From positions 1-53,342 of the forward strand of contig JACQXZ010000038.1 of the NCBI GenBank assembly GCA_016208465.1: a stretch of 53,342 bases of DNA. Reading direction: 5' to 3'. The position numbers and the translations under genes were made by a program. Under the pieces are notes generated by a model that saw only the letters and a program-made list of their open reading frames with translations, did not search any database and was not told where the DNA came from. Positions 3,207-52,335 of this stretch are shown one piece after another. Positions within the stretch are counted from its first letter, which is position 1, and every line of letters begins with the position of its first letter. Origin of the DNA: Actinomycetota bacterium (GTDB lineage Bacteria > Actinomycetota > Aquicultoria > JACQXZ01).

Positions 3207-3247
3207 TTTTCCCCCTTTTCAAAAGGGGGACATAGGGGGATTTAGGG
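3207..3247. repeat. C5T4/A4G5 intergenic hairpin repeat
   Basis: CCCCCTTTT and AAAAGGGGG form a hairpin at 3211-3229, followed by the tail ACATAGGGGGATTTAGGG. The tail supplies the only plausible Shine-Dalgarno (GGGGGA, 3235-3240) for the small-subunit gene that starts at 3249. Related copies lie at 3754, 5243 and 52265. Confidence 0.75.
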
Positions 3248-9897: not shown

Positions 9898-11013
9898 ATG
9901 TCATCAGATGTATTTTTTGCAGATGCAAGATCAAGATCAGGCAACAATTTATTTACGAAAATTAAGAATTTATTTGAGGCTGCAAATCTTAAAGATGTCT
10001 TCAAGAAAGATGATTTTGTTGCTTTAAAAGTTCACTTTGGCGAGCCGGGGAATCTGGGTTATGTAAAACCAAACCTGATCCGTCAAATAGTGGAAAAGAT
10101 AAAGGAATATAAAGCCCATCCTTTTCTTACAGACACAAATACACTCTATGTTGGACAAAGAAGCAACGCTATCAACCACATAAAAAGCGCGATTGAAAAC
10201 GGATTTGCTTACTCTGTCGTAAACGCGCCTATAATAATTGCGGACGGATTAACCGGCAAAGAATATTATGAGGTTGAAATTAATCAGAACTACTTTAAAA
10301 CAGTAAAAATTGGCGGAGCTATCCATCACTCTGATTCAATCATCGTTGTGTCTCATTTTAAAGGACACGAAGCAACTGGTTTTGGTGGAACGTTAAAAAA
10401 TCTTGGAATGGGATCCGGCTCGAGAAGTGGGAAACAAATGATGCATTCAGACATACTCCCAACAATAGAAATAGAAAAATGCAATGCCTGCGCTAAATGT
10501 ATCAGATGGTGTCCTGCAAATGCTATTCAAGTATTTAAGGATAATAATCAAAAATACGCAAAAATAGATGAAAAAAAATGCATTGGCTGCGGTGAATGCA
10601 CCGTCACCTGCAACTATAGAGCAATTGCGATTAACTGGAAAGAAGAAGCTGACGTTTTACAGAAAAAAATAGTTGAATACGCTTATGGTGTCTTGAAAAA
10701 TAAAGAAAATCAAGCTGGTTACTTTAACTTTTTACTGGATATTACGCCAGACTGCGACTGCACAAGCTGGAACGATATACCTTTTGTAAATGATATTGGC
10801 ATAATGGCATCAAAAGACCCTGTTGCGATTGATCAGGCAGGCGTAGATATAGTAAATCAAAAAATTGGACTCGAAGGCAGATTAACAGAAAATCTAAAAG
10901 CAGGAGAAGATAAATTTAGATCTATCCATAAAAACATTAATTGGGAAGTCCAACTGGAATACGCAGAAAAATTAAAGCTCGGATCGAGAAAATACAATTT
11001 GATTGAAGTTTAA
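9898..11013 (+). CDS. DUF362 protein with two [4Fe-4S] ferredoxin motifs
   Basis: 371 residues. A DUF362 domain (VFFADARSRSG to HFKGHEATGFGGTLKNLGMG, about 1-180, continuing after the insert with NDIGIMASKDPVAIDQA) is interrupted at about 195-240 by a bacterial-type ferredoxin insert. That insert carries two motifs, CNACAKCIRWCP and CIGCGECTVTC, each CxxCxxCxxxC. Such proteins are thought to bind two 4Fe-4S clusters and to serve in electron transfer; the enzymatic role of DUF362 is unknown. The gene follows the GT4 gene by 39 bases. Its stop codon overlaps the stop of the convergent gene on the other strand (shared TTAA at 11010-11013). Confidence 0.85.
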   Translation: MSSDVFFADARSRSGNNLFTKIKNLFEAANLKDVFKKDDFVALKVHFGEPGNLGYVKPNLIRQIVEKIKEYKAHPFLTDTNTLYVGQRSNAINHIKSAIENGFAYSVVNAPIIIADGLTGKEYYEVEINQNYFKTVKIGGAIHHSDSIIVVSHFKGHEATGFGGTLKNLGMGSGSRSGKQMMHSDILPTIEIEKCNACAKCIRWCPANAIQVFKDNNQKYAKIDEKKCIGCGECTVTCNYRAIAINWKEEADVLQKKIVEYAYGVLKNKENQAGYFNFLLDITPDCDCTSWNDIPFVNDIGIMASKDPVAIDQAGVDIVNQKIGLEGRLTENLKAGEDKFRSIHKNINWEVQLEYAEKLKLGSRKYNLIEV

Positions 11014-12122
11014 GCAGAAACAGTTTCTTCTTTAAATTTCCTTAATAAATTATCCCTTCCGGCTGTAACCTTGGAATCAAGGGCGCTTATTGAATTAACT
11101 GTTAAACCAGCCATAATATATGAGATTAAAGACTCAGCGCCTTGATTTAAATTAACACCCTCTTCATGCAAACCATCATAGCAACCGCCGGTTATTGAAT
11201 TATAAAGCGGCTGGTTTAAAATATTCTTGCCTAAAAACCAATCAAACGAAAGATTCATTAAATTCTTATAAATATTCTTTCCGGTAATCTGAAATGCTGT
11301 TGCGTAAACATCTACCATACAGGCGGCATCTACAGGCTGTTGATCAAACAAAGCAGGTTCTTTCCCTTTAACGCACCAGCCATTATTTCCTATTACATAT
11401 AACTTGCCATTTTTTATCATCAGCTTGCTTAAAAAATTCAATGAGTTTTCTGCAATATCCAAATAATTTTTTTCTCCTGTAATATCATATGCCAGATACA
11501 TAGCTTGAGGTATTCTTCCGTTTGAATAAGCAACGATATTTTCGAACCACTGCCATTCTTCATCCGCGCAGTTCTTATAGCAATCAGCCACCTTATCAGC
11601 GCATTTTTTAAGAATTGATTCATAAAGCTCTTGAGCAGGATGTTTTTGTAAATAATAATAAATACCCATAACAATAAAACTTAAAGCCCGCGGACTATCT
11701 ATTGTTGATAAATTATCATCGTTAAGCGCGCGTTTAAATATTTCCTCGCCAACAAAACTAACGCTTTTATCGGTAAAATTAACTAATGAAAAATATCCTG
11801 CCGCCCAAACAGCTCTTCCAAAAGAATCTCTTGAGCTCTCTTCACTTAAAAACAAACGATTGTAACTCATAAAGTCGCTAAATTTACCGTCCTCGCGTTG
11901 CGCGTAATAAAGAAATCCTGAATAAATTTTAATTAAATCAATTACAGAAATATCCTCGTATTGCTCGTAATATGCTGCCATAACAATCAATGCGCGAGCA
12001 TTATCATCAATACAGTAACCTGTCTTTCGATTTGGCACTGAGTAAACACTATGCTGAATTATTCCGTTATCGTCTGTTAAAGTTTTTAAATGCGTCAAAG
12101 AAATCGGGTTTAGATCAAACAA
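11010..12122 (-). CDS. alpha/alpha-barrel glycosidase-like protein of the glycan cluster
   Basis: 370 residues, predicted six-hairpin (alpha/alpha)6 fold. Repeated helical pairs carry aromatic-rich turns such as GYCIDDNARALIVMAAYYEQ, SFGRAVWAAGYFSLV, ADEEWQWFENIVAYSNGRIPQAMYLA and DQQPVDAACMVDVYATAF. Paired acidic residues (DDNAR, DEEWQWFE) sit where such enzymes keep catalytic acids, but I cannot assign a CAZy family. No signal peptide, so it is cytosolic. It overlaps the end of the GT4 gene by eight bases and so is probably translated with it. Likely acts on the same glycan; epimerase- or unsaturated-hydrolase-like activity are alternatives. Confidence 0.6.
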   Translation of the reverse strand: MFDLNPISLTHLKTLTDDNGIIQHSVYSVPNRKTGYCIDDNARALIVMAAYYEQYEDISVIDLIKIYSGFLYYAQREDGKFSDFMSYNRLFLSEESSRDSFGRAVWAAGYFSLVNFTDKSVSFVGEEIFKRALNDDNLSTIDSPRALSFIVMGIYYYLQKHPAQELYESILKKCADKVADCYKNCADEEWQWFENIVAYSNGRIPQAMYLAYDITGEKNYLDIAENSLNFLSKLMIKNGKLYVIGNNGWCVKGKEPALFDQQPVDAACMVDVYATAFQITGKNIYKNLMNLSFDWFLGKNILNQPLYNSITGGCYDGLHEEGVNLNQGAESLISYIMAGLTVNSISALDSKVTAGRDNLLRKFKEETVSA

Positions 12123-14783: not shown

Positions 14784-17252
14784 TTATAACATAGATTTCA
14801 AGCTTTGAATAATATTTTTTTCTCTGCCGCTGACAGGTTGAGCTTCACCCATTGTTACTTCAACAATATGACGTTTCGAGTCAGACATAGCTGGCAGTAA
14901 ATTCGATTTCATCTTCTCGCCATCCATCTTTATTTCTTTTATACCTTTGCAGACACCATCAGGATTCTTCACCTCGATTTCATACAAAGCATTTCTAAAA
15001 TATCTTTTTACTTTAAATTCCGTCCAGTGAGACGGAATACAAGGATCAACTAAAAGACCTTCGAAATGAGGACGCACTCCTAATACCCAGTCAAGACAAG
15101 CACGCCACATCCATGCCGCTGTGCCAGTGGTCCATGTAAAAGAACCCTGGCCAAAATCAACTGAATCCGGACCGTAAATAAATTCTGCGTAGACATAAGG
15201 TTCAACCCGATAAACATCCGGCTCTTTGCCTCTTTCGATAAAAGATGTCTTCTTAAAATATTCATAAGCCCTGTCGCCTCTTCCCAAAATACACTCGGCA
15301 ATTACTGTCCAGCAGACTGTATGATTAAAAACAGTGCCGTTTTCTTTTGTTCCCGGAGCAAATCTGCTTATTATTCCAATATCAGGATCTGGCTCTTTGT
15401 AAGCAGGAGAATAAAGCAAAGGACCATATTTTGTATCAAGATGGTGCTTAACTGAATCCATACAGATACAAGCTCTTTCTCCAGTCGCGACTCCACTTAA
15501 AACAGCCCAAGATTGAGCATTTAAATAAATTTTACCTTCATCATTTTTAGAACTTCCTATTACTTCACCTTTATCATTGGTTGCCCGAATATACCATTCT
15601 CCATCCCAGCATAAGAAATTTAATTTTTCCTTTAATTTTTTATAATCCGCAAGATACCTTTTGCTTAATTTGTGATCACGCTGATATTCAGCAATTTCGG
15701 CCATCTCCAAAAGCATCCAGCACAAAAATTCTGTTGTCATTACGCTTTCGCCGCGGCCTTCTCTTCCAATCTGATCTAGTCCATCATTCCAGTCCGCAGC
15801 GCCCATAAGAGAAATCCCCAAACCGCCTAAATCCGGACTTCTCATCAACAATGCCCGATCAATTGCCTTTAAAAGATGATCATAAACAGTTTCCTGTCCA
15901 TAATCATAAAACTCTACCAGTTCATTCAAAAAAGACCAGTCTCCCGACTCTTTAATGTAATTTACCACCGACATAATTAACCAGAGAGGATCATCGGAAT
16001 GTCCTGTTTTTGTTCCCAGGTTTGTTCTTGGATCCCAGTTGTGGATACAACTTCCATCCTGAAACTGATGTTTAAGAATCAAAGCCGTTCTATCTTTTGA
16101 TCTTTGCAGGTCAAATGGTAAAACGCCCAGAATGTCCTGAGCTGTATCTCTAAATCCAAGTATTGATCCACCGCCAATGTAAGCAGAATCCATTCTGGAC
16201 CAATAAGCGGTAATCCAGGTCTGATATTTGTTCCAGATATTCACAGAAAGATCAAATTCTTTGTCTGGAGTCTCTACTTTTACATGCTCCACATAATCAT
16301 CCCAATATTGCTGAAGACGCTCAAATTCATTTTTTGCTTTTTCTGGCGTATTATATTTAGAAATCAAAACTCTCGCTTCTTCCTTCTGGTAAACTGTTCC
16401 TAAAATAACTACAAACTCTTTTTCTTCGTTTGGCGCTAGTTCAAAGGTATATTGCAGTGCTCCTATGGAATCCTCTCCACTGCCCATGCTGTTAAAACAC
16501 TTTCCTTCTTCAACCGCCAAAGGATTGTGCCAAGCATTGTGGAGACCTAAAAATTTCTCCTTTAAACAATCAAACCCATCTGGTTTAAAGCTGGAACCAA
16601 AAAAAGCGTATTTATCCCAAGCTGAATTTGTATTAAGTGAATAAAGACTATCCTTTGCCCGACGTCTTGCTACCGGGATATTCCAATAACGCTTTGTCGC
16701 ATAAATCACTTCATCTTCGATACTCATTTCATTAAAAAGATTGGCAAAATTCCTCTCCATCATATCAAAAGCATAATTGCCCAAACAGAATTCAACATAG
16801 GGGAAAGCGCTTAGTTTACGAAGTTTGTCTGTGATATTCTTTACTCTAACCATCCATATCTCACAACTATCGTGCAAGGGGACATAATAAGTTACCTCTC
16901 CCTCGATGTCATAATTTACAGACTTGACTTTTGTATAACCTAATCCATGTCTTGTTTCCCAAGATTGAGGCTCTTTTGAAACAAGGTTGCCATTGAGACT
17001 CCAATATTTACCTGTTTTCATATCTCTCATATAAAGCTGGCGACCCGGCCTCCCCTGAAGCAACGTTTCTACAGGATATTCTCTGGTGACACGATCGTAA
17101 CCAGAGCTTTCATAAAAAGAATAACCGCTTCCTGTATGTGATGTGATTGAGCAATATCTCTCGTTTGAAAGATAATTTATCCATGGTCTTGGCAGATCAA
17201 GTCTTGTTATAATATACTCTCTGCCATTTTCTGAAAAGTGACCGTATTTCAT
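14784..17252 (-). CDS. GH94-type glycoside phosphorylase (cellobiose phosphorylase-like)
   Basis: 822-residue cytosolic enzyme of glycoside hydrolase family 94, which cleave beta-glucosides with inorganic phosphate to give alpha-glucose 1-phosphate (reversible). The N-terminal beta-sandwich domain opens YGHFSENGREYIITRLDLPRPWINYL and includes GSGYSFYESSGYDRVTR. The (alpha/alpha)6 catalytic domain carries SILGFRDTAQDILGVLPFD and GAADWNDGLDQIG; the first Asp of ADWNDGLD is the expected general acid. HSDDPLWL and TGTAAWMWRACLDWVLGVRP, which precede the jelly-roll end, are also family hallmarks. Length matches cellobiose and related phosphorylases. Exact acceptor unknown (glucose, oligosaccharide or beta-1,2-glucan). 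It probably links a stored or surface glycan to G1P for the neighbouring phosphohexomutase. Confidence 0.87.
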   Translation of the reverse strand: MKYGHFSENGREYIITRLDLPRPWINYLSNERYCSITSHTGSGYSFYESSGYDRVTREYPVETLLQGRPGRQLYMRDMKTGKYWSLNGNLVSKEPQSWETRHGLGYTKVKSVNYDIEGEVTYYVPLHDSCEIWMVRVKNITDKLRKLSAFPYVEFCLGNYAFDMMERNFANLFNEMSIEDEVIYATKRYWNIPVARRRAKDSLYSLNTNSAWDKYAFFGSSFKPDGFDCLKEKFLGLHNAWHNPLAVEEGKCFNSMGSGEDSIGALQYTFELAPNEEKEFVVILGTVYQKEEARVLISKYNTPEKAKNEFERLQQYWDDYVEHVKVETPDKEFDLSVNIWNKYQTWITAYWSRMDSAYIGGGSILGFRDTAQDILGVLPFDLQRSKDRTALILKHQFQDGSCIHNWDPRTNLGTKTGHSDDPLWLIMSVVNYIKESGDWSFLNELVEFYDYGQETVYDHLLKAIDRALLMRSPDLGGLGISLMGAADWNDGLDQIGREGRGESVMTTEFLCWMLLEMAEIAEYQRDHKLSKRYLADYKKLKEKLNFLCWDGEWYIRATNDKGEVIGSSKNDEGKIYLNAQSWAVLSGVATGERACICMDSVKHHLDTKYGPLLYSPAYKEPDPDIGIISRFAPGTKENGTVFNHTVCWTVIAECILGRGDRAYEYFKKTSFIERGKEPDVYRVEPYVYAEFIYGPDSVDFGQGSFTWTTGTAAWMWRACLDWVLGVRPHFEGLLVDPCIPSHWTEFKVKRYFRNALYEIEVKNPDGVCKGIKEIKMDGEKMKSNLLPAMSDSKRHIVEVTMGEAQPVSGREKNIIQSLKSML

Positions 17253-30147: not shown

Positions 30148-33100
30148 TCAAACAAAGTTTATTATATCATTAATCAATTCTTCAAGGAAAGATAAAATTT
30201 TGCCCTCTTTAACATCCTCAATCACCACTGTATTTAAACGAATTTCGTATCTTAAATTTCTATATTTATTATGTAAAAACTCCTCTGTCTTTTTGTTTAT
30301 CCTGACATTTTTAAGAAAAATCTTTCCTTTTTCCCATCTTATTTCAGAAACAGAACCTTTTTTGGCTAAAATTTTCAAATGACAAATTTTTTCAAGATCT
30401 TTCACTGGAAGCGGGGTATTTCCGTATCTGTCAGTTAATTCATCCATAGCATCTTTTAAGTCTTCAAAATTATTCACAGCGGCTATTTTTTGATAAGCTT
30501 CTATTCTTAACGCCTCATCGGACACATAAGATTTTGGTATATACGCCTCCACAGGCAAATCAATTCTAACCTCTAAAGGTTTCTTAATCAATCTTCCCCT
30601 CAACTCATCAACCGCCTCTTTTAAAAGCTGACAATAAAGCTCAAACCCAACTTCGCTCATATAGCCGTGCTGCTCCGGGCCAAGAAGATTTCCTGCTCCC
30701 CGGATTTCAAGGTCACGCATCGCAATCCTGATTCCCGATCCTAATTCGGTAAATTCACTAATTGTTTTTAATCTTTCATAAGCGGCAGTATTTAAAGACA
30801 TTTTGTTTTTAAAAAAGAAATAGGCATACGCCCGATGGTGAGCTCTCCCCACTCTTCCTCTTAACTGATAAAGAGTGCTAAGACCCATTCTGTCAGATTC
30901 ATCAACAATTAATGTATTGACCGATGGGATATCAAGACCTGATTCAATAATAGTAGTGCAAACCAAAACATCGTATTTTCTGGATACAAAAGAATCCATC
31001 GCTCTTTCCAGTTCATGTTCAGACATTTGACCGTGAGCTATTCCAATCCGCGCGCTGGGAACAATATTTCTTAACTGAAAAGCAATACGACTGATAGTAT
31101 TTACCCGATTATGAACATAAAAAATCTGACCTTTTCTTGCAAGTTCCCGCTGAATAGCATGTTTAACCATTTCGCGGTCAAATTCACCCACATAAGTAAC
31201 AACAGGATACCTGTCTTCGGGAGGAGTATTGATTACACTTAAATCTCTAATCGAAGCAAGCGACATCTGAAGAGCTTTTAACCTGACGTCTTTTTGTAAT
31301 AATCTATGAGTTCCGATTATAATATCTGTTTTACCTTCGGTTAAATCTTTTAAAATTTCTTTTTGTTCTGATTTTGATTTAAATCTGCTTAAAACGTCAA
31401 CCCTAATAGGAAAAGAAGCCAACCGTTCGGAAAAAGTATTGTAATGCTGTTCCGCTAAAACTGTTGTAGGAACCAAAACCGCAGCTTGCCTGCCTTCAAT
31501 CACTGCTTTAAAAACCGCTCTTAAAGCAACTTCTGTTTTTCCATAACCGACATCCCCGCAGATTAATCTATCCATAGGCCGATTTTTTTCCATATCTGTT
31601 TTTGTATCGATAATTGCCTGAGCCTGATCCGCGGTTTCTTCAAAAGGAAAAGATTCTTCCAGCTCCTTTTGCCAAACACTGTCAGGACCAAAAGAATAGC
31701 CGTTAACACTTTCTCTTTGAGCATAAAGCTCCAAAAGGTCAAAAGCTAATTTTCTAACTGACTCCCTTGCTTTCTTTTTTGCCTGATTCCATTTATTCGT
31801 GCCAAGACGACTGATTTTTGGAAGTGAATTATCTGCGCCAATGTATCTTTGAACCTTGTGCATTTCGGTAAACGGCACATACACTTTATCATTCCTAGCG
31901 TATTCAATTAACATATATTCTCTTGAAATATTATCAACTTCTTTTGTTAACAGCCCGCCGAATCTGCCAATTCCGTAATTTAAATGAACGACATAATCCC
32001 CTCTCCTTAAATCATAAAAATCAGAAAGAGAAATCGCTTCTGATGTCTGCTTGTCTTGACGATATTTCTTTCGTTTCTTAAAAATATCGCTCTCAGCAAA
32101 AACAGCTAACTTTAAAGAAGAAAATATAAATCCTTTGCTTGGGCTGCCAATAAAAATATTAATACCGGGGGAAAGAATATGTTTTGAATTGCCTGAAACA
32201 AATCCCCACTCGTTCAAAAGCTCAATAAAACGATCCGCCTGCCCTTTGCTCCCCAAAACCAAAACAACAGTAAAACCATCTTTTTCCAAATCTGCTATTG
32301 TCTCTTTTAGCCTGCCAAGATCTCCCTGAAAAGAATCAACCGGAACAGCCTCCAGCCTTCCTATCAAGTCAGCTCTGTCTGGTGTTTGTATTGAAACGAA
32401 ATCAATCCGTTTCTGCTCAATTAAATTCACTGCTTCATCAACAGAAAACATAAACGAATTTAATGACAAATCTGCATCTTTAGTTTCCTGTAAATACTCA
32501 TCGTTCTTACTGTAAATATCTCTCCCTTCGTCGTAAAGATATCGGGGTTCATCGAAAAACACCATTCCGTCTAAAGGAAAATATTCAAAGAAACTACTTA
32601 AGTCTTCAAACAAAAAAGGAATATACCGCTCTATGCCGTTAAAGGTTATCCCCTCTGAAATTCTGACAATATCTTCTCTTAACCATTGAGAAGTATTCTT
32701 GTTTAAATCTACTAAACTTAAAGCCCGTTCAATTGAAGATTTGGATAAAATAATTTCATGAGACGGAAAAACTTCAAACTGCTCAATGTTTCTTATGGAA
32801 CGCTGAGAAAGTATTTCAAATTCCCGAATTGACTCAATTTTGTCCCCAAAAAATTCTATTCTTAAGGGAAAGTCGCCTGTAGAAGGAAAAATATCTATTA
32901 ATCCGCCTCTTACGCAAAATTCTCCTTTTTCTTCAACAACAGAAGTTCTTTTATATCCTGCCTTTACCAGCTTTGTGGTTAAATCTTCCAAATCTGTTTC
33001 AATGTCTGTTTTTAAGTTAACCGGCGAATAAATATTCTGCTGGGATGGGATAATTTTTTGCATTAAGGCGGCGAATGAAGCAACAACAACTATTTTTTCT

Positions 33101-33438
33101 CTTTTTTTAAGCTTATCTAAAACCTGCATTCGTTTTCCAACTATTTCTTTGGCGGGGGAAACTCTTTCATAAACAAAATTCTCCCAATCAGGAAAATAAA
33201 AAACCTTGTCGTCTGATAAATAACTCTTCAGCTCAAAAGCCATCTCTTCCGCTTTCTCAGAAGAAGTTACAATCAAAACAGGAACATTTAGAGAATCAAA
33301 AAAAAGCGTAAAAAGAAAGGGGCGTAAAAAAGATGGCGCAATTACTTTTGAGTGCAAACCTGATTTTTGAATTTTATTCCTTAATTCTTTTATTTCTTCT
33401 TTGGAATTTGCTAATGATAAAATTTTTTCCAAACTCAT
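30148..33438 (-). CDS. mfd: transcription-repair coupling factor Mfd lacking helicase motifs II and III
   Basis: 1096 residues; the family is about 1150-1180. UvrB-like N-terminus, RNA-polymerase-interacting domain (LRRGDYVVHLNYGIGRFGGL) and a RecG-like translocase. Walker A ICGDVGYGKTEVALRA, VLVPTTVLAEQHY and IGTHRLLQKDV are intact, as are VLVCTTIIESGLDIP and QLRGRVGR. Between KDVRLK and ALQMSLASIRDLS, however, about 43 residues are absent. They should contain the Walker B DEEQRFGV (motif II) and LTATPIPRTL (motif III). The frame is not broken (junction about 31268-31285). Without motif II, ATP hydrolysis and translocation should be lost. ATG at 33438 is six bases after AAGGA. Confidence 0.9.
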   Translation of the reverse strand: MSLEKILSLANSKEEIKELRNKIQKSGLHSKVIAPSFLRPFLFTLFFDSLNVPVLIVTSSEKAEEMAFELKSYLSDDKVFYFPDWENFVYERVSPAKEIVGKRMQVLDKLKKREKIVVVASFAALMQKIIPSQQNIYSPVNLKTDIETDLEDLTTKLVKAGYKRTSVVEEKGEFCVRGGLIDIFPSTGDFPLRIEFFGDKIESIREFEILSQRSIRNIEQFEVFPSHEIILSKSSIERALSLVDLNKNTSQWLREDIVRISEGITFNGIERYIPFLFEDLSSFFEYFPLDGMVFFDEPRYLYDEGRDIYSKNDEYLQETKDADLSLNSFMFSVDEAVNLIEQKRIDFVSIQTPDRADLIGRLEAVPVDSFQGDLGRLKETIADLEKDGFTVVLVLGSKGQADRFIELLNEWGFVSGNSKHILSPGINIFIGSPSKGFIFSSLKLAVFAESDIFKKRKKYRQDKQTSEAISLSDFYDLRRGDYVVHLNYGIGRFGGLLTKEVDNISREYMLIEYARNDKVYVPFTEMHKVQRYIGADNSLPKISRLGTNKWNQAKKKARESVRKLAFDLLELYAQRESVNGYSFGPDSVWQKELEESFPFEETADQAQAIIDTKTDMEKNRPMDRLICGDVGYGKTEVALRAVFKAVIEGRQAAVLVPTTVLAEQHYNTFSERLASFPIRVDVLSRFKSKSEQKEILKDLTEGKTDIIIGTHRLLQKDVRLKALQMSLASIRDLSVINTPPEDRYPVVTYVGEFDREMVKHAIQRELARKGQIFYVHNRVNTISRIAFQLRNIVPSARIGIAHGQMSEHELERAMDSFVSRKYDVLVCTTIIESGLDIPSVNTLIVDESDRMGLSTLYQLRGRVGRAHHRAYAYFFFKNKMSLNTAAYERLKTISEFTELGSGIRIAMRDLEIRGAGNLLGPEQHGYMSEVGFELYCQLLKEAVDELRGRLIKKPLEVRIDLPVEAYIPKSYVSDEALRIEAYQKIAAVNNFEDLKDAMDELTDRYGNTPLPVKDLEKICHLKILAKKGSVSEIRWEKGKIFLKNVRINKKTEEFLHNKYRNLRYEIRLNTVVIEDVKEGKILSFLEELINDIINFV

Positions 33439-33459
33439 ACCCAATCCTTGCTTTTAGCA

Positions 33460-37451: not shown

Positions 37452-39866
37452 TCACGGCTGATTATCTCCGCCAAATTTCTCACTCACTGATTCATCTTCG
37501 TAAACACTTCTTATTGCATCCGTCAACAATGGAGCGATCGATAAAACAGTGAATTTATCAATAAGTTTCTCTTTGGGAATTGGTATTGTATTAGTTAAAA
37601 CAATTTCCCTTAAGGGAGACGCTTTAAATCTTTCAACTGCTGACCCTGAAAGAATAGGATGAGTCGCGCAGGCATAAATATCTTTTGCTCCTTTTGAAAG
37701 CAATACCTCGGCTCCCTCAAGAATAGTTCCTCCGGTGTCAATCATATCATCAATTATTATAGCATTTTTACCCTCAACTTCACCAATAATATCTCTTGTG
37801 GTCTCAGAAATATTGTGCGCCGGCCTTAATTTATGTAATATTGCAAGAGAACCGCCTACCATATCCGCAAATTTTTTGGCTGTTTTAACTCGCCCGACAT
37901 CGGGAGAAACAACCACTATATCTTTAAGATCTTTTTTAGCAAAATAAGACGCTAGTGTTGGAATCGCGGTTATATGATCCACCGGAATATCAAAAAATCC
38001 CTGAATCTGACCAGCATGCAAATCCATTGTAAGAATGCGATCAGCGCCAGCGGTTGAAAATAAATCTGCGATTAACTTAGCGGTAATCGGTTCTCTTGAA
38101 AGCGTTTTTTTGTCTTGTCTTGCGTAACCGTAATGAGGAACAACTGCCGAAATTCTCTTGGCAGAAGCCCGTTTCAAAGCATCGATCATTATTAATAATT
38201 CCATTAAATTAGAGTTAACCGGCGGACAAATCGATTGAACAACAAAAACATCCGCTCCTCGGACACTTTCTAAAAATCTTACATAAATTTCACCATTTTT
38301 GAATGTGGATATTTCTACTTTGCCAAGCTCTAAACCAAAAATTCCCGCTATCTCACTGCTCAATTGCAAATTAGATGTGCCAGAAAAAAGCATCATTCTC
38401 TTCTTTGTCACATTAATCATAGATGTTTCCCTTTCGACCTCTGATGTGTTTAAATCAATACTTATATTAGCACATTTAAAAATAAAAATATAATCCTTTC
38501 TTTTTTTTGTTAATCTCTCCCTGTAGCCAGATATATTTTTCTGTTCACACCTTTCAAGCCCAAGACTTCCTGCCGGAACATTCTTGGCTATTGCAGAACC
38601 TGCGCCGGTAATTGCCTTTTTTCCAATTTTAACTGGCGCGATGAGCATCGTATCGCTTCCAATAAAAGCGCCATCTTCTATAATTGTTTTATGCTTGTTT
38701 GCTCCATCATAATTGCACGTAATCGTTCCTGCCCCAACATTTACCTCTTTCCCGATAACGGCATCTCCAATATAACTTAAATGAGGAACTTTGCTTTTTT
38801 CTTTTATCCGGGTATTTTTAATTTCAACAAAAGTTCCTGCTTTTGCTTCCTTTTCCATAATAGTTCCCGGTCTTAAAGAACAAAATGGGCCAATAACATT
38901 ATCTCCTTTAATATTACACTCTTTTACCACCGCATATTGTATTTTTACATTATTGCCAATTTTTGTATCTATCAGATGGGCAAGCGGACCCACGGAACAG
39001 CCTTTTCCAATAGTTGTCTTGCCTTCAAGAAAACAAAACGGATAAATAACTGTATCGCGTCCTATTTTTACATTTTTATCAATAAAGGTTGACTGAGGGT
39101 CAATTATGCTTACTCCTTCTTTCATCCAATAATCATTTATCTCTTTTTTCATTAAGCCATTTGCCTCCGCAAGCTGTATTCTTGAATTAATTCCCAAAAC
39201 TTCATCTGAATTATTTGTTAAAAAAGCTGAAATAACCTGATTTTCATTCTTCAGAATTTCTACTACGTCTGTTAAATAATACTCCTTTTGTCTGTTGTTA
39301 GCCTTTATTTTCTTAAGCGAATTAAATAATTTATCTTTTTTAAAACAGTATATTCCTGTATTAACTTCGCATATTTGTTTTTCGTTTTCTGTGGCATCTT
39401 TCTCTTCGATTATTTTTTCCACTAAACCATTTTTGTTTCGAACAATTCTTCCATAACCATAAGGATTATCAAAATAAGTAGTAAGGAGAGTAATGGATGA
39501 TTTATTTTTATTGTGAAGATTAATAAGATTTTTCAAGGTTATAAATGTAATAAGAGGTGTATCGCCGTTTAAAATAAGTAAATCACCTTTTAAATCAGTT
39601 AGCACATTTTCAGTAACTTTAACCGCATGACCCGTGCCAAGTTGTCTCTCCTGAACAACAAAATCAACCTTAGAACCAACTACATCTTTAACCTGATCTG
39701 CTTTATGACCTACTACCATTATAATTTTTTCAGGATTAATCTTTCTAGCGGTATCTACAACATATTTTATCATTGGCTGACCGCAGAGAGGATGTAAAAC
39801 CTTCGACAGGCTGGATTTCATTCTTGTTCCTTCACCTGCGGCTAAGATAACAATCCCAACGCCCAT
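37452..39866 (-). CDS. GlmU-Prs fused reading frame (UDP-GlcNAc pyrophosphorylase / ribose-phosphate pyrophosphokinase)
   Basis: One uninterrupted frame of 804 residues holds two complete enzymes. Residues about 1-455 are GlmU: VILAAGEGTRMKSSLSKVLHPLCG, then a left-handed beta helix with RPGTIMEKEAKAGTFVEIK, SYIGDAVIGKEVNVGAGTI and GAGSAIAKNVPAGSLG (GlcN-1-P acetylation and uridylylation, for peptidoglycan). The last 322 are Prs: MMLFSGTSNLQLSSEIA, VVPHYGYARQDKK, MDLHAGQIQGFF and IIIDDMIDTGGT (PRPP synthesis). About 30 linker residues (KDYIFIFKCANISIDLN…) look like translated intergenic DNA. An AAAGGGA site precedes an internal ATG at 38420, so Prs may also be made alone. In relatives the two are adjacent genes. 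Confidence 0.85.
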   Translation of the reverse strand: MGVGIVILAAGEGTRMKSSLSKVLHPLCGQPMIKYVVDTARKINPEKIIMVVGHKADQVKDVVGSKVDFVVQERQLGTGHAVKVTENVLTDLKGDLLILNGDTPLITFITLKNLINLHNKNKSSITLLTTYFDNPYGYGRIVRNKNGLVEKIIEEKDATENEKQICEVNTGIYCFKKDKLFNSLKKIKANNRQKEYYLTDVVEILKNENQVISAFLTNNSDEVLGINSRIQLAEANGLMKKEINDYWMKEGVSIIDPQSTFIDKNVKIGRDTVIYPFCFLEGKTTIGKGCSVGPLAHLIDTKIGNNVKIQYAVVKECNIKGDNVIGPFCSLRPGTIMEKEAKAGTFVEIKNTRIKEKSKVPHLSYIGDAVIGKEVNVGAGTITCNYDGANKHKTIIEDGAFIGSDTMLIAPVKIGKKAITGAGSAIAKNVPAGSLGLERCEQKNISGYRERLTKKRKDYIFIFKCANISIDLNTSEVERETSMINVTKKRMMLFSGTSNLQLSSEIAGIFGLELGKVEISTFKNGEIYVRFLESVRGADVFVVQSICPPVNSNLMELLIMIDALKRASAKRISAVVPHYGYARQDKKTLSREPITAKLIADLFSTAGADRILTMDLHAGQIQGFFDIPVDHITAIPTLASYFAKKDLKDIVVVSPDVGRVKTAKKFADMVGGSLAILHKLRPAHNISETTRDIIGEVEGKNAIIIDDMIDTGGTILEGAEVLLSKGAKDIYACATHPILSGSAVERFKASPLREIVLTNTIPIPKEKLIDKFTVLSIAPLLTDAIRSVYEDESVSEKFGGDNQP
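38406..38430 (-). promoter_or_regulatory. internal ribosome-binding site and ATG for prs
   Basis: On the minus strand GAAAGGGAAACATCT precedes ATG at 38420, which begins MINVTKKRMMLFSGTSN, the natural start of Prs (322 residues; B. subtilis Prs is 317). This supports independent translation of prs inside the fused frame. Confidence 0.6.
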
Positions 39867-39915
39867 CCTTTTCCTCACAATCAAGTTTTGTTAACGGATA
39901 CGCCTCCGCTCCAAG

Positions 39916-40354: not shown

Positions 40355-41497
40355 TTAGTGGTTTGATAATGCAACAACTGAGATTTCAATATCGACGTCT
40401 AGTGGAAGACGCGATACCTGAACTGTCTCCCTCGCCGGGGGACTAATTTTAAACACCTCCTTAAAAACAGAATTTAACTCGCCGAAATCATCAAGATTTC
40501 GCATAAAAACACTAATTTTAACAATATTAGAAAGCGAACTATCACTTGCGATAAGTATTTTTTCTATATTGTTAAAAATCAGTTCGGCTTGGTTCTTTAT
40601 ACTGCCTTTGAATATTTCTCCGCTTTCCGGAATAATTGGAATTTGACCGGAAACAAAAACCATCCCTTTTGCCCTAATGGCTTGAGAGTATGGTCCAACA
40701 GGCAAAGGCGCTTCTTCAGTAATAATGGTTACTCTTTTCTCCGAAGATAAACCTTTTAGCACATCCATGACCAGCTTAAGATCTGAAGGCTTATCAACAT
40801 CAATACCAATCTCTGGAAATGAACTTATAACAACAGCGGCTTTCGCTCCAAGAAGTTCTGAACATTTTTGTTCTAACTCACCTAAAGTTAAAAGATGAAA
40901 GATAAATTTCAAAACAAATGTAAAGCTTAAAATCCTAAAAAGCTTAAGAGGACTTTTTCTCAAACTAAAAACTGTCTTCATAAGCTCAGCATTTTCTTCT
41001 ACTACTCTCGGAGCAACTAGTCCCAAATTTCCACCCGTGAATATTCCTTCTTTTAAACTAATATAAGTCCTTTCCGCCTTAGGTAAAACAGAATGAATCG
41101 TATTTTTTGATACAATGGGATAATAAATCTCTGCATCTTTTTTCTCGCATGAAATTAAAAAATCATCAATGGCACGGCTGGTTAAAAGAGGAATATCAGA
41201 AGTAATAACTAAAACAGGATTGCTTGAATTTAAATATTCAAAACCTTGCTGGACATTTTCAATCACAGATGAACCGCCAATCAAAACTTTGTCGACTTTT
41301 CCCGATAAAAAAAAGTCTTTTGCCTGCGCAGGAATAACTACTACAATTCTGCCGATTCTGGTGGAACCCTTAAGGGCATCTACTACATATTCCACCATGG
41401 ATTTTCCGTTTATCTTTATGAGTGCTTTGGTAAGTGCCTTTTCGGATTCAAATCCTTTTAAGGTACCCCCTGCCAGAATCAAAGCATCCGTTTGCAC
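40355..41497 (-). CDS. nucleotidyltransferase-RidA fusion protein
   Basis: 380 residues, two domains. Residues 1 to about 250: a MobA/GlmU-like nucleotidyltransferase with LILAGGTLKGF, a basic KALIKINGKSMVEYVVDAL segment, VLVITSDIPLLT (metal Asp) and FTGGNLGLVAP. It lacks a recognisable acceptor-specific motif, so the substrate is unknown. Residues about 255-380: a complete RidA/YjgF domain (EAPLPVGPYSQAIRAKGMVFVSGQIP, SLSNIVKISVFMRNLDDF, PARETVQVSRLPLDVDIEISVVAL), including the Arg used for imine deamination. In Bacillus the RidA protein YabJ is a separate gene beside spoVG; here it is the C-terminus of the preceding enzyme. The frame is continuous and no internal ribosome-binding site was recognised. 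Confidence 0.82.
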   Translation of the reverse strand: MQTDALILAGGTLKGFESEKALTKALIKINGKSMVEYVVDALKGSTRIGRIVVVIPAQAKDFFLSGKVDKVLIGGSSVIENVQQGFEYLNSSNPVLVITSDIPLLTSRAIDDFLISCEKKDAEIYYPIVSKNTIHSVLPKAERTYISLKEGIFTGGNLGLVAPRVVEENAELMKTVFSLRKSPLKLFRILSFTFVLKFIFHLLTLGELEQKCSELLGAKAAVVISSFPEIGIDVDKPSDLKLVMDVLKGLSSEKRVTIITEEAPLPVGPYSQAIRAKGMVFVSGQIPIIPESGEIFKGSIKNQAELIFNNIEKILIASDSSLSNIVKISVFMRNLDDFGELNSVFKEVFKISPPARETVQVSRLPLDVDIEISVVALSNH

Positions 41498-52264: not shown

Positions 52265-52335
52265 TTTCAAATCCCCCTTTACCCCCCTTTAATTCCCCCC
52301 TTGGCAAGGGGGACACAGGGGGGTTAAAAGGGGTT
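52265..52335. repeat. CCCCTTT/AAAGGGG-family repeat between lemA and htpX
   Basis: TCCCCCTTTACCCCCCTTTAATTCCCCCCTTGGCAAGGGGGACACAGGGGGGTT, several C/T runs and G/A runs that can pair in more than one way. Same family as 3207, 3754 and 5243. Confidence 0.7.

Follow-up and report, generated by a model that had tools for sequence, protein, structure and literature searches.

A transcription-repair coupling factor gene lacking helicase motifs II and III in an Actinomycetota draft genome

The dependence of the Mfd motor on its Walker B element is known from two single changes, D778A in MtbMfd (PMC3084762) and E730Q in Escherichia coli Mfd (PMC5910403), each of which abolishes ATP hydrolysis. Loss of the whole segment that bears this element should do at least as much. 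Decay of nucleotide-excision-repair (NER) genes is documented in reducing genomes, for example in the symbionts of vesicomyid clams, whose earliest losses were uvrB and uvrC and which retain mfd (PMC5310779). The gene considered here encodes an Mfd from which the segment with Walker B is missing, in a genome whose only uvrC carries a premature stop codon.

The gene was found in a draft genome of an Actinomycetota bacterium (1.75 Mb, 105 contigs, 89.5% complete). I will use "the window" for the whole stretch of DNA that was analysed, 53,342 nucleotides in length. The mfd gene lies on the minus strand at positions 30148-33444 of the window. Its frame runs for 1098 codons without a stop; the listed start is TTG, with an ATG two codons further in. 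Against the Mfd family profile TIGR00580 (cut-off 800) the protein reaches 974 bits, which identifies it as an Mfd, and the match comes in two stretches, covering profile positions 1-557 and 595-906. Solved Mfd structures likewise align in two blocks, with the break at query residues 723-728. The main features of the gene, in window coordinates and all on the minus strand, are these:

30148-33444, minus strand: mfd with an internal deletion of 40 codons, 1098 aa (TIGR00580, 974 bits)
32758-33021, minus strand: UvrB-like UvrA-interaction domain (UvrB_inter, PF17757), intact (Pfam)
31840-32010, minus strand: RNA polymerase interaction domain (CarD/RID, PF02559), intact (Pfam)
31285-31632, minus strand: N-terminal part of the first RecA-like domain; the PF00270 match breaks off at position 109 of the 167 in the profile, the point at which motif II is expected to start (Pfam)
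31534-31557, minus strand: motif I (Walker A), GDVGYGKT, residues 630-637, intact (alignment with relatives)
31273-31275, minus strand: deletion junction, codon GCT, Ala724 (comparison with class relatives)
30841-31155, minus strand: second RecA-like domain (PF00271), intact (Pfam)
30844-30867, minus strand: motif VI, QLRGRVGR, residues 860-867, intact (alignment with relatives)
30310-30558, minus strand: C-terminal TRCF domain D7 (PF03461), intact (Pfam)

The preliminary description of this DNA had placed an in-frame excision of motifs II and III at 31255-31300 and had considered all other motifs intact. Both observations hold. The junction lies at 31273-31275, the reading frame stays open through it, and the alignments to profile and structures divide there. 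The protein retains motifs I (GDVGYGKTE), Ia (PTT), Ic (IGTHRLL), V (TTIIESGLDIP) and VI (QLRGRVGR), and its matches to PF17757, PF02559, PF03461 and Helicase_C all lie above the Pfam cut-offs. It does not possess a complete SF2 motor, which would include Walker B (DEEQ) and motif III (TAT).

The extent of the loss was determined by comparison with relatives from the same class, the nearest level of kinship that the comparison covered. At residue 724 the protein reads GTHRLLQKDVRLK-A-LQMSLASIRDLSVI, and the matching stretch in 19 class relatives is GTHRLLQ.DV...(D/N)LGLVIIDEEQRFGV...TLSATPIPRTLQMS. The intervening segment has a constant length in all 19 relatives that could be read fully, and relative to them the gene is shorter by exactly 40 codons (120 bp), a figure that replaces the earlier estimate of about 43 residues or 129 bases. 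The missing segment is the one that carries motifs II (Walker B, IDEEQRF) and III (TATPIPR). It contains 18 columns that are invariant across the 19 relatives, which excludes chance or an error of alignment as the source of the gap. At the junction itself, where this gene has the alanine codon GCT, the relatives have on the left a codon for Asp or Asn, and after it 40 more residues, the last of them Thr. A hypothetical fusion of the two outer codons, with G coming from GAY and CT from ACT, would explain the alanine codon.

In the phylum sample no other genome was found to share the junction. A query spanning it was matched whole in just one of 150 genomes of the phylum, the genome from which it came (0 of the 149 others). 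Within the class, matches to the C-terminal side of the query begin at or just past the junction, with the exception of one genome (G009), whose match bridges the junction with a gap (query positions 26-119 spread over 264 bases). A comparison with related genomes, as the preliminary description had proposed, thus finds the segment in every class relative read and the junction in none of the other genomes of the phylum sample. The draft genome itself encodes one Mfd and one intact RecG; a search of its 105 contigs found neither a second mfd nor a stray copy of the 40-codon segment, and a scan of genome contigs for relatives yielded no useful one.

The age of the lesion can be approached through the positions that remain. 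There are 201 columns invariant in the 19 relatives, 183 of which are retained in this Mfd. The protein differs at 10 (nine substitutions and the junction codon), as compared to 5 to 17 differences at invariant columns in intact relatives of comparable divergence. The retained positions therefore show no excess of change, as expected if the lesion is very recent and equally if it is an artefact: either the deletion is young or it is absent from the organism.

The second of these possibilities, that the organism has a normal mfd and that 120 bases were lost through assembly, gap closing or chimeric reads, is the main rival reading, which I judge less likely than a real deletion. It is in keeping with the draft state of the genome, in 105 contigs, and both the purifying selection on the remainder of mfd and the full preservation of the frame would be expected of an intact gene. 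The stop codon in uvrC and the loss of two stop codons in neighbouring fused frames (all described below) could also hint at errors in the consensus. Against it stand several observations. Assembly collapse is usually caused by a repeat, and a de Bruijn assembly can join two stretches falsely only where they share a k-mer. No direct repeat of at least 12 nt was found within 600 bases on either side of the junction, so simple collapse at a repeat is not expected; the check covers the present flanks, the deleted sequence itself being absent from the assembly. In the relatives the two breakpoints have only a few bases in common. A random artefact would preserve the reading frame only one third of the time. 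Finally, comparison of 30 other open reading frames of the window with NCBIfam revealed none with a break suggestive of internal deletion, some of these frames having no informative family match. Should the deletion prove to be an artefact, it would serve as a useful caution: where a draft genome lacks catalytic motifs cleanly and in frame, any claim about function should wait for the support of reads.

The state of the genome at large was assessed by a screen for nonsense interruptions based on codon usage, covering 14 stretches that total 218 kb (the window included) and 123 coding frames, each 150 codons or longer. Apart from uvrC, no convincing coding frame interrupted by a nonsense codon was found in the 218 kb. 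Judged in this way, the genome shows neither general decay nor an abundance of errors, which also speaks against a consensus artefact in mfd. General decay of genes can be set aside within the same 218 kb and with respect to nonsense changes, as the same-frame stops other than that in uvrC look like gene boundaries. An altered genetic code can also be dismissed, since TAA, TGA and TAG all terminate open reading frames in the window.

Two frames of the window unite genes that are ordinarily separate in the class. The first (37452-39884) joins GlmU and ribose-phosphate pyrophosphokinase in one frame of 810 aa. Those class relatives that give one continuous match have at least one stop codon inside it, and in the others each of the two genes gives a match of its own. 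As prs still has an ATG and a possible ribosome site, the frame may have arisen by loss of the glmU stop codon. The second (40355-41497) joins a nucleotidyltransferase resembling MobA/IspD to a RidA protein in one frame of 380 aa, an arrangement not found in a single stop-free frame in any class relative. The order of genes between 25347 and 42461 (ispE, RidA, glmU-prs, rplY (L25), an ABC pair, pth, mfd, peptidylprolyl isomerase, mazG, eno and pyk) presumably resembles the region from ispE to mfd in Bacillus subtilis.

The only uvrC of the genome lies at C19:14382-16211 (locus L038). It contains an in-frame TAA at C19:15207, corresponding to residue 276 of 633, a position occupied by E, K or D in six relatives. 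If the sequence is taken as it stands, the C-terminal half of UvrC would be lost; the stop could, however, itself be a sequence error. Beyond the TAA, uvrC contains two in-frame palindromic mini-elements with a run of C and a run of G, at about 15225-15262 and 15398-15460. In the parts of the genome that were read, palindromic elements with arms of C5-6/G5-6, constituting one family, are scattered about: they occur in the window at 3211-3240 and 52273-52330 and in locus L038 at 10881-10945, 11360-11430 and 16373-16539, and a tandem array of such elements lies at the end of contig C19.

The frames of UvrA (968 aa) and UvrB (671 aa) are open, which counts against the notion of a decaying pathway. 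Elsewhere in the class, no Mfd above the family cut-off was found in two genomes of one genus (G008 and G023), the former also giving no match to UvrC, and a third genome (G019) gave no match to UvrC, though it has Mfd. Within the limits of draft genomes, then, genes of the NER pathway appear to have been lost repeatedly in the class.

The preliminary description had offered three readings of the locus: a dead translocase, a recent in-frame deletion or a collapse of the assembly. The first two, taken together as a translocase inactivated by a recent deletion, account best for the evidence, considering that the rest of the gene shows no sign of relaxed constraint, that the junction is unique in the phylum sample and that uvrC is damaged; collapse at a simple repeat is disfavored by the lack of repeats at the junction. 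I regard it as probable (roughly 0.6) that mfd suffered a real and recent loss-of-function deletion in a decaying NER pathway, rather than giving rise to a new kind of regulator. What the data show directly is the lack of the 40 codons in mfd and elsewhere in the draft genome, the normal number of changes in the remainder of the gene, and the stop in uvrC as assembled. The presence of both lesions in the DNA of the organism, the inactivity of the shortened Mfd and a connection between the two losses are inferred.

According to the reading of recent loss, a single in-frame deletion would have removed motifs II and III from the only mfd. If the shortened protein folds, its modules for binding RNA polymerase and UvrA could remain, and yet it would be unable to hydrolyze ATP, to drive RNA polymerase onward or to pass lesions on to UvrA2B. 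By analogy with the Walker B mutants, ATP-dependent translocation and displacement of RNA polymerase are predicted to be lost, and transcription-coupled repair would be off. The loss would fit a wider and recent decay of NER in the lineage, as suggested by the stop in uvrC, and the deletion may have been tolerated because a truncated UvrC would void the role of Mfd in repair in any case. Removal of the segment would probably unfold the first RecA domain. AlphaFold models of the motor region gave a mean pLDDT of 60 for this Mfd and 65 for an intact relative, with a pTM of 0.42 for each, both poor and the control little better; in the model of the shortened protein, scores were lower in the first RecA domain, which at this quality is suggestive at most.

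The preliminary description had also remarked that an ATPase-dead Mfd still able to bind stalled RNA polymerase would be a strange regulator. Such a protein would keep its hold on the stalled polymerase, and perhaps on UvrA, and function without moving. The open frame and the intact RID, UvrB-like, Helicase_C and TRCF domains would permit this, and E. coli Mfd(E730Q) does bind DNA in vivo (PMC5910403). However, no positive evidence for such a role emerged. Motifs I, Ia, V and VI are conserved as in active Mfds, which argues against a long-established motor-dead protein, as this would not need them; the expected damage to the fold of the first RecA domain and the lack of a second genome with the junction in the phylum sample speak against it as well. 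I consider the idea quite improbable. A more specific form of it, a shade less probable still, is a naturally motor-dead Mfd of new origin: it would continue to bind UvrA and stalled RNA polymerase, and would be maintained as a regulator or static roadblock marker after the bacterium had lost UvrC-dependent incision. Least credible of all is a short Mfd that remains active, with another residue standing in for Walker B. The normal constraint on the rest of the gene is the sole point in its favor, while the catalytic DE pair and the TAT of motif III are gone with no recognizable replacement in the 1098 aa, and even single changes in Walker B abolish hydrolysis (PMC3084762).

If the deletion is real, the genome may offer a snapshot of transcription-coupled repair in the course of being lost, with mfd and uvrC freshly lesioned and uvrA and uvrB still open. 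It would then bear on the sequence of steps by which NER decays in bacteria other than host-restricted symbionts, and mutations would be predicted to show an altered strand bias.

Compared with other members of the Mfd/TRCF family (TIGR00580), such as those of E. coli and Mycobacterium smegmatis, the protein is alike in its order of domains, its UvrB-like module, RID, the outer motifs of both RecA domains and the TRCF domain, and differs in lacking the 40 residues that bear motifs II and III. The vesicomyid clam symbionts (PMC5310779) resemble this bacterium in the piecemeal loss of NER genes, uvrC among the first. In the symbionts, however, uvrB and uvrC decayed and mfd is intact with all seven helicase motifs, whereas here uvrB is intact and it is mfd that bears an internal deletion. 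The laboratory mutants MtbMfd D778A and E. coli Mfd E730Q are disabled in the same catalytic element, but by single changes in a folded protein, in contrast to the loss here of 40 residues from its core.
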